The notes under the pieces: generated by a model | The model's input: the letters and a program-made list of their open reading frames with translations, nothing else | Databases searched by the model: none | Told to the model about the DNA's origin: nothing | Source of the DNA: a virus | Reading direction: 5' to 3' (one strand) | Virus record (IMG/VR): IMGVR_UViG_3300036719_004074 | Coordinates: 1-22,870 of that record | Length of the DNA stretch: 22,870 bases | Shown here: in pieces, positions 12,170-22,189 of the stretch | Numbering within the stretch: the stretch's first letter is position 1 | Layout: each line of letters opens with the position of its first letter | Made by a program: the position numbers and the translations under genes

Positions 12170-12207
12170 AACTCGTCACCCGAAAGCTCAAGAGCCTCAA
12201 GCCGTGA
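12166..12207 (+). pseudogene. 5' remnant of the ParB-methyltransferase gene, cut by a homing endonuclease insertion
   Basis: ATG 12166 overlaps the upstream stop and reads MKLVTRKLKSLKP before TGA 12205-12207. The intact gene at 12722 begins MKLKTVSLKALKP and continues APWNPRE. Nine of 13 residues agree, and the break falls right after LKP. This fits an original gene start, coupled to the upstream gene, that was separated from its body when the homing endonuclease gene entered. The DNA identity is only moderate, so co-conversion from a related donor is likelier than a fresh duplication. Confidence 0.6.
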
Positions 12208-12212
12208 AATTG

Positions 12213-12241
12213 TTGACGGATATCAAACCAGCACATACAAT
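12213..12241 (+). promoter_or_regulatory. promoter P7 of the homing endonuclease gene
   Basis: TTGACG (12213-12218), a 17-nt spacer and TACAAT (12236-12241) are a near-consensus sigma70 pair. The ATG at 12249 is 7 nt downstream, predicting a leaderless message. The spacer lacks the ATAAACGCC block of class A promoters, which fits an imported gene with its own promoter. Confidence 0.7.
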
Positions 12242-12248
12242 GTGCCGG

Positions 12249-12725
12249 ATGAATGATTTAACAGACGAACAATTTGGACACTGGATGGCTGGCTTTACAG
12301 ATGGAGAGGGCTGCTTTTATTGCCGCGTATCAAGGCCGCGGCGAGGGTCGATATCTGAGGACATAGAGCCAGCGTTCAGCATTATTCTGAGAGATGACGA
12401 TCTTGCAATTTTAGAAGAAATAATTCTCAGGACGGGATGGAAAACAAGGATACAGCGGCACGGCGCGATGACCAACCGTCAAGGCATTCGATCAAATCCC
12501 AGGGCAAAACTTGAAGTTAGAAGGGCGCTGCACTGCATGGAGGTCGTGAGATTCTTCGACAAATTCCGACTCAGAGCTAAGAAGCGGAACGACTTCGCCA
12601 TCTGGCGAGAAATCGTGATAGGAATCGCGCAAGGACCAAGGGGCAGTAGATGGGGAGGCCCAGCAGACCGATCCGACATCATTTCAAAAATTGAACAACT
12701 CAAGGCAGGTAGGGCATACAAATGA
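12249..12725 (+). CDS. LAGLIDADG homing endonuclease (single-motif)
   Basis: This is a 158-residue protein. The motif HWMAGFTDGEGCFYCRVSR (residues 11-29) is a LAGLIDADG helix with the catalytic acidic residue in GFTDGEG. Further on, LRAKKRNDFAIWREIV is the familiar second-helix region of phage and organelle members. One motif implies a homodimer. Codon use is visibly more AT-rich (tta, aga, ttt, tat codons) than the flanks, indicating transfer. GTG 12204 is an alternative coupled start adding 15 residues, but the promoter P7 spacing favours ATG 12249. Its stop overlaps the methyltransferase ATG (12722-12725). The probable target is the conserved LKPxPWNPR-coding DNA. Confidence 0.9.
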   Translation: MNDLTDEQFGHWMAGFTDGEGCFYCRVSRPRRGSISEDIEPAFSIILRDDDLAILEEIILRTGWKTRIQRHGAMTNRQGIRSNPRAKLEVRRALHCMEVVRFFDKFRLRAKKRNDFAIWREIVIGIAQGPRGSRWGGPADRSDIISKIEQLKAGRAYK

Positions 12726-14860: not shown

Positions 14861-16450
14861 ATGATCAGCCCAGCGCCAGAGTTCGGGACGCCAGGCAAAG
14901 GCGTGGCCGAGTTCCTCGACAGCCCGGCCTTCATTCGCGTCATGCTGGGAGGCCGAGGTTCGGGGAAAACGTACGGGCTCGCGCAGGACGCCTGCGAGCA
15001 CATCTGGCTGAACGCCGGCGCGAAAGTGATCGTGGCCCGCGAGACCGAGGCCAGCCAAGCGGACTCATCCATCGACACCTTCCTGACCTACTTCGAGAAC
15101 ATGGGACCGGGATGGGAGCCGGCCAGCACCGGGCTCTTTCAGACATGGAGCAACGGACGCAAAATCCGCGTGCCGAGCAAGCTCGCCCTCGAACGGCTCG
15201 CAGCCGTGCGGGACAGCCTGAAGAACCGAGCGGACATCGCCCACTGGATCGCCACCGAGGGCGACCGCCTGTGCGGCTACATCCACTTCCGCGGACTCCC
15301 AAAGGCCGAGAAGGGCAAGTTCCGCGGCATGGAGTGCAGCTACCTCGCGCTGGTTGAGGCCGACCAGATCGCCCGCTGGCAGTTCGACCTGAGCCTCGCG
15401 TGCCTGCGGTGGAAAGGCACCGACCCGGCGACATGCGACGAGAAAGGATTCATCAAAGACCGCTGCGTGGTGCTCGACACCAACCCGCCAGGGCCAGAGC
15501 ACTGGATCGCCAAGCTGGAGGCCGAGGAGACAGCCAAGCCCGAGAGCGAGCGCATCATCCGCTTCTGGCACCTCACCACCTACGAGAACGAGCACAACCT
15601 CCCCGAGAACTACATCCGCGACACCATCATCCTGCCCTACAGCGGCAACCCGGCGATGCTGGAGCGGATGCTTTACGGCCGATACGCCGACGCTTACGAC
15701 GGGAGCCCGGTTTATTACAACTTCAGCATCCCGATCCACGAAGGCAACGAGCTACCGTGGCCCGCCGGCGCCTACCTGATGCGCGGCCACGACGTCGGGA
15801 CCAACGCCGCCACCGTCTGGAGCGCCTATTGGGTGGAGAACGGCACCGAATACTGGCACGACCTCTTCGAGTTTTACCTCGAAGGCAGCGACACCGACCG
15901 GCACGTCAACGAGGTACTGAAGCTCACCGAGAGCGAGTTTCCCTTCTGGAATGACCGCGGCATCTGTGCCGGCATAGAGGACTTCATCGACCCAGCGGCA
16001 GCGAACAGCAGCTACACCAAGCAGATCGTCGTGGACGGCAAGAGCGTGAAGGAGAGCGCGCTGAACATCTTCCGCACCTACGGCATCTACCCGCGCTTCC
16101 AGACCCAGAGCCGCGGACTCATGGAGACTTTCGGCATCGTCAACCGCCTGATGGCGAAGCGCGACAGCCAAGGACGCCCCGTGTACCGCCTGGACGCCAA
16201 AGGATGCCCCAGACTCGCACGCGGCCTACACGGAGGCTACCGCTGGCCCCCAGCAGACGAGCGCGGAGGCAACGAGAACGTGCCGCTGAAGGGCGAGAAG
16301 TGCGAAAACCTCGACCACGTCCAGGACGCCGCCCGCTACGCCAAGATCAACGCCCTACGGCTCCTCAAGCTGGAGATCGAGAAAAAGGCACCACCGACCC
16401 CCTGGAACATGAGCAAGCCGAAGCCGGCGAACATGAAGCGCCGCATCTGA
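14861..16450 (+). CDS. terL: terminase large subunit
   Basis: This 529-residue packaging motor and nuclease has an N-terminal ATPase with Walker A GGRGSGKT (residues 30-37) and a Walker B-like LALVEADQI (163-170). Its C-terminal RNase H-like nuclease has acidic residues in RGHDVGTN (Asp311), GIEDFIDP (around 371-378) and a late DHVQDAARY (around 485-493). It translocates DNA into the prohead through the portal and cuts concatemers. The ATG at 14861 was chosen because it leaves the ATPase intact; no Shine-Dalgarno precedes it. The genus-level headful or cos type cannot be told from the sequence alone. Confidence 0.95.
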   Translation: MISPAPEFGTPGKGVAEFLDSPAFIRVMLGGRGSGKTYGLAQDACEHIWLNAGAKVIVARETEASQADSSIDTFLTYFENMGPGWEPASTGLFQTWSNGRKIRVPSKLALERLAAVRDSLKNRADIAHWIATEGDRLCGYIHFRGLPKAEKGKFRGMECSYLALVEADQIARWQFDLSLACLRWKGTDPATCDEKGFIKDRCVVLDTNPPGPEHWIAKLEAEETAKPESERIIRFWHLTTYENEHNLPENYIRDTIILPYSGNPAMLERMLYGRYADAYDGSPVYYNFSIPIHEGNELPWPAGAYLMRGHDVGTNAATVWSAYWVENGTEYWHDLFEFYLEGSDTDRHVNEVLKLTESEFPFWNDRGICAGIEDFIDPAAANSSYTKQIVVDGKSVKESALNIFRTYGIYPRFQTQSRGLMETFGIVNRLMAKRDSQGRPVYRLDAKGCPRLARGLHGGYRWPPADERGGNENVPLKGEKCENLDHVQDAARYAKINALRLLKLEIEKKAPPTPWNMSKPKPANMKRRI

Positions 16451-19103: not shown

Positions 19104-19457
19104 ATGATCCCGAGCACCAGCCCCGCAATGCCAATGGGCGTCGCCGCCAACCGCTACGACCAGCCTGCGAACCTCACGCCACCCATGCCAGCCGGCGGAA
19201 TGGCCCCGCCACCGCCCGCGGCACTCGCCGCCGGAGCACCGCCACCCGCCGCGATGCCGATGGGCAGCACCCTCCCGGCGATGCCAGCGCCCAGCGCCCC
19301 GGCAGGCCCACCGTGGAGCGTCGCGCTGCAACCGGACGGCAGCAGCAAATACTTTATCCCGAGCCCCGACGGCGACCCATCGAAGGAGATCGTGCTCGGC
19401 GTGAATCCGCCACCCAAGCTCCCCAAGGCAATGGCGCCCGCCGCACCCAAGGCGTGA
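19104..19457 (+). CDS. Pro/Ala/Met-rich low-complexity protein
   Basis: This 117-residue sequence is dominated by Pro, Ala, Met and Gly (for example MPMGVAANRYDQP and PPPAALAAGAPPPAAMPMG). A short apparently ordered patch (WSVALQPDGSSKYFIPSPDG) and a DPSKEIVLGV segment lie near the end. It is probably intrinsically disordered and may be a linker or structural accessory protein. It starts 4 nt after the previous stop and ends 9 nt before the tRNA gene. Confidence 0.55.
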   Translation: MIPSTSPAMPMGVAANRYDQPANLTPPMPAGGMAPPPPAALAAGAPPPAAMPMGSTLPAMPAPSAPAGPPWSVALQPDGSSKYFIPSPDGDPSKEIVLGVNPPPKLPKAMAPAAPKA

Positions 19458-19466
19458 ACACTCAAC

Positions 19467-19541
19467 CGCGGGATGGACAAGTCTGGTCAAGTCGTCAGGC
19501 CCATAACCTGAAGATCGAGGGTTCAAATCCCTCTCCCGCCA
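19467..19541 (+). tRNA. tRNA-Met (CAU), initiator-like
   Basis: A full cloverleaf is visible. The acceptor stem CGCGGGA/TCCCGCC has 6 pairs, and the 1:72 pair is C:C. The D-arm has G10:C25, A11:T24, C12:G23 and GG at 19485-19486. The anticodon stem TCAGG/CCTGA encloses the loop CCCATAA (anticodon CAT, 19502-19504). The T-arm is GAGGG-TTCAAAT-CCCTC, and the discriminator is A. The unpaired 1:72 and A11:U24 are hallmarks of bacterial initiator tRNA; the third hallmark, GGG/CCC in the anticodon stem, is only partly kept (AGG/CCT). Position 33 is C instead of U. CCA is not encoded. Elongator Met or Ile2 identity is less likely. Confidence 0.88.
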
Positions 19542-19552
19542 TAAACAAACCG

Positions 19553-19663
19553 ATGACGCCGTGGGAGCAGTTTGTCGCAGAAAAAGCGCAGCAAATGCAC
19601 GAGGAGATCGAGAAGGCGTTCCTTTTCGGAAACAACCCACCCGGCACCGGGAAAGCCGCATGA
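19553..19663 (+). CDS. 36-residue helical protein
   Basis: ATG 19553 opens an amphipathic helix (TPWEQFVAEKAQQMHEEIEK) followed by a short polar end, with its stop overlapping the next ATG (ATGA 19660-19663). It starts 11 nt after the tRNA. It is a real-looking mini-gene by coupling and composition. The function is unknown. The longer open frame reading through the tRNA is rejected. Confidence 0.5.
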   Translation: MTPWEQFVAEKAQQMHEEIEKAFLFGNNPPGTGKAA

Positions 19664-19825: not shown

Positions 19826-22189
19826 ATGGACGCCTCCCTCGAAGTCCGACTCAACAGCGAAAGCCCGTTCTACGACGCAAGCCTTTTCATCAGCCTCGCC
19901 AAGCTCGGCGGGGACTATGTGAAGAACGGGCTGGCCGTCCTGAACTTTTACGTGAACGACTTCGACTGCGCCTTCGACGTGGCCAACGCGCTCGCGGCCC
20001 TGCCGGACGGCACCACCTTCAGTCAGTTCGACAAGACCGACCGGAGCAACAGCCGCAACTACAGCCACCCCTGCGGCAGCACTCAACTCGAAGTGCTGGC
20101 TACCGCCATCAGCCAGATACTCTTCGGCGGCGAGACCAACCGCCGCGTCGAGGCCCGCAACGACGACGACGAAACGAAGGCCGAGGCAGTCAACCAACTG
20201 CTGGCTTGGAACGACGCCCAGAACGACAGCTACGCCACCGGCTACGATTGGGTGATGGACAGCATCATTACCAACCGCGGCGTGATGTATGACCACTGGT
20301 GCCACCTTTACGAGACGGAAAAAGAGGCGGTCGAATACACGATGCCCTACGTGCCCGAGATCGACCCGGTGACCAAGAAGGCGCTGCCCAAGCCGGCCAA
20401 CTACCAGCCAGTGAAGAAGACCCGCTGGCGCACCGTCCGGAAGCCCGCAGGTGGATACTCGAAGCTCGAAGTCATCAGCCCCTACGACTTCATCTGCGAC
20501 CCAGCGCTGCCGATCAAGGATATGCAGCGCGGCCGCTACGCCGGCCACCGCGTGACCCTGACGTGGCAGGAACTCAAGCGCCGCAGCGAACTCGACCCCG
20601 AGGATTACGACTACGTGCTGCCGAAGGTCGTCGAGAAGCTGAAGAACGCCAAGGCACGCAAAGGACTGACCGGCATCGCGGCCAGCAACACCACCACGAC
20701 CAGCACCAGCCGCAGCTATTGGGAACGTCAGCGCCGCGGCATGACGACACCCGACCTCGGCATGACCGATAAGGTGAACAAGGACGACGGCGGCACCGTC
20801 GAATGCTGGCTCATTACCGTGCGGGCCAAGCCCAAGACCTACAAAATCTACGAGGACGACGAATACGAACTGATCGAGATGCTGATCGCCGGCGAGACCG
20901 ACCTCCTGTGCGTCAACATCAAGACCAACGCGCACGGCCAATTCCCCTACGCGGTCGGCGAGAGCAGGCCTGGAGCCCACCAGCAGTTCACCCCAGGCCG
21001 CGCCCTGATGATGAAGCCCACGCAGGACATGATCGATGTCCTCAAGGGCGCACACGCCGAGCAGGTCGAACGCGCCGGCAGCCTGTTCCTCGGCGACGGG
21101 ACCAAGTGCGACGTGGCTCAAGTGCTGACCGACAAGACTCGGGTGCGGCAACTCATCCTCAAGACCGAGGAAGCAGGCAACACGCCGAACGAGCAAATCC
21201 TCCAGCAGATGAAGGTGGACGACCCCACCAAGGAGTTCGTCGGCGAGATGACCTTCTGGCAGCAAGTCATGGAGCAGACCAGCGGAGCGAACGCGCCGAT
21301 CCAGGGGCAGACCGAAGACCCCGGACAGACCCTCGGCCAATACCAGGACGTCCAGCAGATGGCGATGGGCAGGCTCTCGACCATCGCCCGCAACCTGAGC
21401 AGCCGCTCGCTGGTGCCACAGACCCGCCGGATCGTTATGGACCTGCAGCAGTTCATGCCCGACACCATGAAACTGCGGATCACCGGAGACAACGACGACG
21501 AATACGACCCGGACGAACCGCCGCCGAAATACATCGACATCCGCAGGGAGCCGATCACCAGCGAGGAACTGAAGGCGATGGAGGGCGACAGCCCCGAAGT
21601 CGCGGCGCAGAAGCTCGCCGCCGGCGAGGAACCAATTCCACGCGACCCGCGCCTCGGCGACGACGACGCGACCGCGCAGGCCAAGATCAGCCGCGGCGAG
21701 GTGCCCAACCCACCCGACCCGACCCTCACAGCGCCTGACATCCAGTTCGGGTTTGACGTGTCGCCGCACGATGGATCGATGCCAGGCACCGACGCCCGAG
21801 CGGTCGCCGCAGCCGCCCGCGTGATCGAAGCCAGTGCCAACCCAGCCTTCCAGGCGTGCTTCGACAACACCGTCCCCGGCAACATCGACCCCAAGGCGTT
21901 GATCGTCTGGACCGCCCGCAAGGCCGGACTGCCGGTGAAAAACTTCCTGATCACCCGCAAGACCGCGCAGCAGAACGCCAAGGAGCGCCTGATGGCTGCA
22001 GGAGGCGGGATGCCACCACCTGAGCAGCCGTGGCAACCGCCGCCGCTCCCAACTTCCGGCGCGCCTATCGGCCGGCCCGCAGCGCCACAGCCGCCGCCTG
22101 ACGCGCTCGGGCAGCCTAGCGCCGCCTTGCTGCCTCCCAACCCCAGCGCCGAGCCGCCGCAGGCCCAAGGCGTGACCCTCTCGCTGTGA
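19826..22189 (+). CDS. portal protein
   Basis: This is a 787-residue protein in the expected place downstream of the terminases. The N-terminal third has RNYSHPCGSTQLEVLATAIS, a segment rich in AVNQLLAWNDAQN, and GYDWVMDSIITNRGVMYDHW. These match large podovirus or siphovirus portals of the P22-like size class (about 700-800 residues). Middle helices (YQDVQQMAMGRLSTIARNLS) and an acidic strand section follow. The last ~80 residues are Pro/Ala/Gln-rich and probably disordered. Twelve copies form the ring through which TerL pumps DNA. The identification rests on size, position and general resemblance. Confidence 0.85.
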   Translation: MDASLEVRLNSESPFYDASLFISLAKLGGDYVKNGLAVLNFYVNDFDCAFDVANALAALPDGTTFSQFDKTDRSNSRNYSHPCGSTQLEVLATAISQILFGGETNRRVEARNDDDETKAEAVNQLLAWNDAQNDSYATGYDWVMDSIITNRGVMYDHWCHLYETEKEAVEYTMPYVPEIDPVTKKALPKPANYQPVKKTRWRTVRKPAGGYSKLEVISPYDFICDPALPIKDMQRGRYAGHRVTLTWQELKRRSELDPEDYDYVLPKVVEKLKNAKARKGLTGIAASNTTTTSTSRSYWERQRRGMTTPDLGMTDKVNKDDGGTVECWLITVRAKPKTYKIYEDDEYELIEMLIAGETDLLCVNIKTNAHGQFPYAVGESRPGAHQQFTPGRALMMKPTQDMIDVLKGAHAEQVERAGSLFLGDGTKCDVAQVLTDKTRVRQLILKTEEAGNTPNEQILQQMKVDDPTKEFVGEMTFWQQVMEQTSGANAPIQGQTEDPGQTLGQYQDVQQMAMGRLSTIARNLSSRSLVPQTRRIVMDLQQFMPDTMKLRITGDNDDEYDPDEPPPKYIDIRREPITSEELKAMEGDSPEVAAQKLAAGEEPIPRDPRLGDDDATAQAKISRGEVPNPPDPTLTAPDIQFGFDVSPHDGSMPGTDARAVAAAARVIEASANPAFQACFDNTVPGNIDPKALIVWTARKAGLPVKNFLITRKTAQQNAKERLMAAGGGMPPPEQPWQPPPLPTSGAPIGRPAAPQPPPDALGQPSAALLPPNPSAEPPQAQGVTLSL

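Follow-up and report, generated by a model that had tools for sequence, protein, structure and literature searches.

Almost every bacterial tRNA has uridine at position 33 (U33), since this base makes the U-turn in the anticodon loop. The initiator tRNA-fMet of Escherichia coli and Pseudomonas aeruginosa conforms to this, and combines a CAU anticodon with an unpaired 1:72 position (commonly CxA), an A11:U24 pair, GG:CC next to the loop, and A37 and A38. In P. aeruginosa the 5' half of tRNA-fMet1 is CGCGGGGTGGAGCAGTCTGGTAGCTCGTCGGGCTC, which reads ...GGGCTC, that is, U33 (PMC11380944). Initiators with C33 also exist. Metazoan tRNA-Met(i) has C33 for U33, but it is of the eukaryotic type with A54/A58 (PMC9023262), and the bacterial formylation marks are not common to both. 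Closer are the C33 initiators native to Weissella, Leuconostoc, Oenococcus and the CPR, which have the loop CCCAUAA in an initiator-type arm. However, these are chromosomal, are usually the sole initiator arm found and typically have CNGGG/GAGC stems.

Initiator tRNA is also a nuclease target. VapC toxins cleave it in the anticodon stem-loop (PMC8522696, PMC7180214). Where host defences cut tRNAs, phage tRNAs rescue phages, and in those phage tRNAs that anticodon nucleases target, mutations have altered the loop so that one of its bases differs from that of the host (PMC10264068). That work concerns other tRNAs and makes no mention of position 33. In the open-licence papers searched, neither a report of C33 in phage initiator tRNAs nor a case of phage evasion by a loop change at an initiator-tRNA target was found.

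The tRNA gene described here lies in a 22,870-base IMG/VR virus record, the whole of which was analysed and is called the window. It shares the features listed above with tRNA-fMet of E. coli and P. aeruginosa, but has C33, C1xC72 and A29:U41, the last being a common natural variant. Its closest named phage counterpart is the tRNA-Met of Pseudomonas phage D3 (AF165214, 53398-53473; CGCAGGGTGGAGAAGTGGTCATCTCGCCGGGCCCATAACCCGGAG...), also a phage-borne initiator type with CAU, C32-C33, A11:U24 and a mispaired 1:72 (C1xU72 in D3). In contrast to the window gene, that of D3 encodes CCA, has a CCGGG anticodon stem and a GAGA/TCTC D-stem, and comes from a phage with a known host, P. aeruginosa. The reading favoured here, with a probability of roughly 0.4, is that the window gene encodes an initiator tRNA in which U33C leaves P-site function intact and evades nucleases.

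The tRNA gene of the window

ARAGORN calls a single tRNA in the window, a tRNA-Met with anticodon CAT, and the same segment matches Rfam RF00005 over its full length (58.5 bits against a cut-off of 29 bits, E = 1.6e-10). The fold z-score is -2.7. An earlier note, made from the letters alone, had read here an initiator-like tRNA-Met with CAU, C1xC72, A11:U24, A29:U41 and C33. All of these base assignments hold, and the tool-based calls agree on tRNA-Met(CAU). CAT starts at tRNA base 36, so that C34 is 19502 and base 33, a C, is 19501 within the loop C32-C33-C34-A35-U36-A37-A38 (19500-19506). Infernal marks C1xC72 as a non-pair (C72 is 19540, followed by A73 at 19541). The A11:U24 pair is 19477:19492 in the canonical alignment, although the D-arm fold is ambiguous: in the minimum-energy fold GAC pairs with an upstream GUC to form the D stem, unlike in the canonical one. 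Two features were absent from the earlier account, namely the lack of an encoded CCA and an A.A at 13:22 of the D-stem in the canonical fold. The window contains a single copy of the loop motif, and 100 shuffles contain none with at most one mismatch allowed.

A tRNA fold with CAU, a non-Watson-Crick 1:72 and A11:U24 points, on these sequence marks, to a bacterial-type initiator. The tRNA departs from the usual form in two respects. Instead of three G:C pairs at 29-31:39-41 it has two, plus A29:U41 (19497:19509). Verrucomicrobiota genomes usually carry this arm, so it is compatible with the bacterial initiator class. It also has C33, and U33 is typical rather than defining for bacterial-type initiators because native C33 initiators exist. 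The feature is very probably a genuine phage-borne initiator tRNA gene.

Table 1. Features of the tRNA gene and its surroundings in the window.
Feature	Position	Strand	Basis
Terminase large subunit (tailed phage)	14861..16450	+	Pfam PF03237 3.2e-12; phrog_2 4.1e-24
Upstream ORF, proline/alanine-rich, 117 aa, flanks tRNA	19104..19457	+	no PHROG or Pfam match
Initiator-type tRNA-Met(CAU), without encoded CCA	19467..19541	+	ARAGORN; Rfam RF00005 58.5 bits
C1 of C1xC72, initiator mark	19467..19467	+	position reading; Infernal non-pair
Anticodon-arm positions 29-41: A29:U41 outermost, G30:C40 and G31:C39 inside	19497..19509	+	position reading
C33 replacing U33	19501..19501	+	base position relative to CAT anticodon
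Anticodon CAU	19502..19504	+	ARAGORN; reading by position
Downstream ORF, 36 aa, flanks tRNA	19553..19663	+	no family match
Portal protein, SU10-like	19826..22189	+	Pfam PF23899 7.1e-16

Genomic setting

A gap of 95 bases separates the stop codon of the 117-aa ORF (19457) from the next ATG (19553), and the tRNA takes up 75 of them. It shares its strand with the neighbouring genes and lies in the late-gene region between terminase and portal, a short distance upstream of the latter. The window encodes large and small terminase subunits, the SU10-like portal, a DnaB-type helicase, an ERF-family protein, an N6/N4 DNA methylase and a LAGLIDADG endonuclease. The gene for the last of these (12204-12725, + strand; PF00961, 5.8e-13) is just upstream of the methylase gene. 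With terminase and portal genes flanking the tRNA on one strand, the claim that it is phage-encoded is borne out, and its place among packaging and structural genes assigns the contig to the tailed phages (Caudoviricetes). No promoter-like site was found around the tRNA, and it would therefore be processed out of a longer transcript.

Terminase homologues were also sought as a guide to the host. None was found in 289 Verrucomicrobiota, 399 Pseudomonadota or 199 genomes from the phylum of one Planctomycetes MAG (G011), but these searches had no positive control, and their empty outcome says little. The terminase has three relatives in IMG/VR (45-47% identity), and the stretches examined for these contain no tRNA. 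An initiator-type tRNA directly adjoins the terminase large-subunit gene in several unrelated phages (L342, L346, L349, L356, L571).

C33 among viral tRNAs

A C33 scan with GTCNGGNCCATAACCNGAAG matched 99 IMG/VR stretches. The GTC pattern misses GCC-type arms, so these were scanned separately with GCCNGGNCCATAACCNGGAG, which matched 110. ARAGORN accepted most of the stretches as tRNA-Met. The first scan gave 73 distinct tRNAs and the second 79; of these, 48 and 58, respectively, have a mispaired 1:72, and A11:U24 is present in 58/73 of the first set. Therefore most, but not all, are initiator-like outside the anticodon arm.

Pooled and compared with column 33 masked, the viral sequences comprise 149 distinct initiator-type tRNAs with C33 and at least 199 with U33, plus one core that occurs with both; the broad-pattern U33 counts are lower bounds, so these numbers do not make a frequency and no overall C33 fraction is given. 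The ATCTC D-stem class is the only one with both counts complete, and there 20 of 110 viral stretches have C33 and 90 have U33, a ratio that covers viral stretches only. The commonest arm of the U33 viral tRNAs is the one with A29:U41 (106/199 among the matches listed). For a purine at 33, nine IMG/VR stretches matched in the one arm type scanned; all were rejected, none being a tRNA. A match in planctomycete phage ZRK32 was rejected on the same ground.

Named phages show both forms. U33 is found in all 16 initiator-type tRNAs classed among 17 sampled named phage records, and C33 is present, in addition to D3, in Janthinobacterium phage Donnerlittchen, Virus Rctr197k and ANMV-1 virus. The ANMV-1 tRNA (an archaeal-virus record; L566, 280-355) has the loop CCCAUGA and overlaps an annotated ribonucleotide reductase CDS. 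Mycobacterium phage Erdmann (L695) has a large tRNA cluster that includes a U33 initiator-type tRNA, close to which lie an annotated tRNA-Pyl(cta) (2259-2331) and a gene for peptidyl-tRNA hydrolase (1578-1952).

How often has C33 arisen? On a FastTree tree of 348 tRNAs, built from few columns and with column 33 masked, the C33 label needs at least 65 changes compared with a mean of 112 in shuffles, and well-supported branches force seven. C33 is clustered yet not of single origin. It is a recurrent minority class in phages and can be phage-specific.

C33 in cellular genomes

The anchor genomes used here were picked for carrying the C33 pattern. Among the matches listed for Verrucomicrobiota (289 genomes), nearly every arm is TCAGGCTCATAACCTGA, which has U33 together with A29:U41, and the exact C33 arm is in at least three of the genomes (G186, G012 and the anchor G010). 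The pattern is confined to the anchor in Pseudomonadota (1/399), where ARAGORN finds no tRNA at the place concerned (L385), and in Bacteroidota (1/198; 0/197 others). The GCC-form C33 arm is in none of 200 Pseudomonadota.

Elsewhere C33 is native. The genome scan matched many Leuconostocaceae and CPR genomes, and most of the C33-matched genomes checked showed no U33 arm. Among them, C33 is the sole initiator arm found in Leuconostocaceae, CPR, Opitutales, Lentisphaeria and Victivallales, with the exception of Oenococcus, which has a second, differing match. Within the Leuconostocaceae, C33 initiator-type tRNAs were seen in Weissella, Leuconostoc, Oenococcus, Fructobacillus and Convivina (L225, L230, L258, L299 and others; G001-G004), and no U33 initiator arm was found in Weissella minor, Convivina or Fructobacillus. 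Two Victivallales MAGs each have two identical C33 initiator-type tRNAs in tandem (L248, 914-1077; L301, 3720-3883). Spartobacteria UBA695 (L298 / L376) and Acidisoma (G015) have a C33 initiator-type arm beside U33 arms, and this extra copy may be a prophage tRNA.

The earlier note had called the changes in the window tRNA unusual. This is right for C33 as regards the main cellular phyla sampled, where few genomes have it, but A29:U41 is common. Nor is C33 peculiar to the window tRNA, because it recurs in phages, in 149 distinct tRNAs, and belongs natively to the Leuconostocaceae and to many CPR bacteria. The recurrence of C33 in phages, together with its rarity in the main bacterial phyla sampled, suggests that phages favour it.

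What might C33 do for a phage?

Under the favoured reading, the tRNA is probably matured from a late polycistronic transcript and would have CCA added by a host enzyme. By analogy with the native C33 of Leuconostocaceae and metazoa, U33C most likely keeps P-site initiation working. At the same time it would alter the anticodon loop that host nucleases, VapC-type or other, attack. A usable initiator pool would then be left to the phage when, during infection, the host cleaves the anticodon loop of its own initiator tRNA. On this reading the window tRNA itself would be expressed, charged and formylated, would serve in initiation and would resist nucleases. The evasion step fits, by analogy, the published evidence on other phage tRNAs. 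What does not favour it is that native C33 hosts exist, that many phage initiator tRNAs keep U33 and that phages as a rule avoid carrying a gene for tRNA-fMet where VapC-LT2 cleaves that tRNA (PMC10264068). LshCas13a was considered as the selecting nuclease; it prefers U-rich anticodons, and its paper makes no mention of initiator tRNA. The wider proposal, that U33C is a convergent phage adaptation gained many times that shields initiation from nucleases of the initiator anticodon loop, is a tentative one.

What if the change brings no benefit? Initiators bind the P site directly, so U33 might matter less to them, and U-to-C could drift on mobile, non-essential phage copies. The C33 of metazoan initiators (PMC9023262) sits well with this, as do the U33 retained by most phage initiator tRNAs and the variation at 1:72 in many of those with C33. 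However, free drift should also give transversions, and no purine-33 tRNA was found in the one arm type scanned, which is a mild objection. Another is that the CAUAA loop and the stem are intact, although the search patterns required both. Drift of this kind is rather unlikely. A third possibility is that the host has a native C33 initiator which the phage acquired or matches, and for such a host C33 would be nothing unusual. Lineages with C33 as the sole initiator arm found could supply such hosts, and the closest full tRNA found to that of the window by global score is a C33 tRNA from a Stahlbacteria MAG (84% identity). Yet the nearest neighbours of the window tRNA in the viral set, by alignment, have U33, C33 is essentially absent from the sampled Pseudomonadota and Bacteroidota, and D3 has C33 in a U33 host. 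Inheritance from the host is a serious alternative for this contig, though rather unlikely.

Perhaps the gene is instead a pseudogene, an integration-site remnant or a product of sequencing error. The absent CCA, the A.A at 13:22 and the metagenomic origin of the contig would be in keeping with that. Nevertheless, the tRNA is full-length and high-scoring rather than a 3' fragment, and bacterial tRNA genes do not always encode CCA (PMC5143459). The earlier note had itself named an error at 19501 as a way for its claim to fail. Such an error is unlikely because C33 recurs in other phage tRNAs, in independent assemblies as well as in the named phages D3 and Donnerlittchen. A defective or misread gene is therefore very improbable.

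Returning to retained initiation with nuclease evasion, repeated U33C in phage initiators without purines would point to constraint combined with an initiation-specific benefit. If evasion is the cause, phages would be defending the start step of translation, and bacterial defences directed against initiator tRNA could then be expected. Phage D3 and its host offer a way in. Base 33 of the anticodon loop is C in the phage and U in P. aeruginosa, and thus U33C can be phage-specific and the evasion idea is directly testable with a named phage. Four other Pseudomonas phages carry copies that are 98.7% identical to the D3 tRNA-Met.
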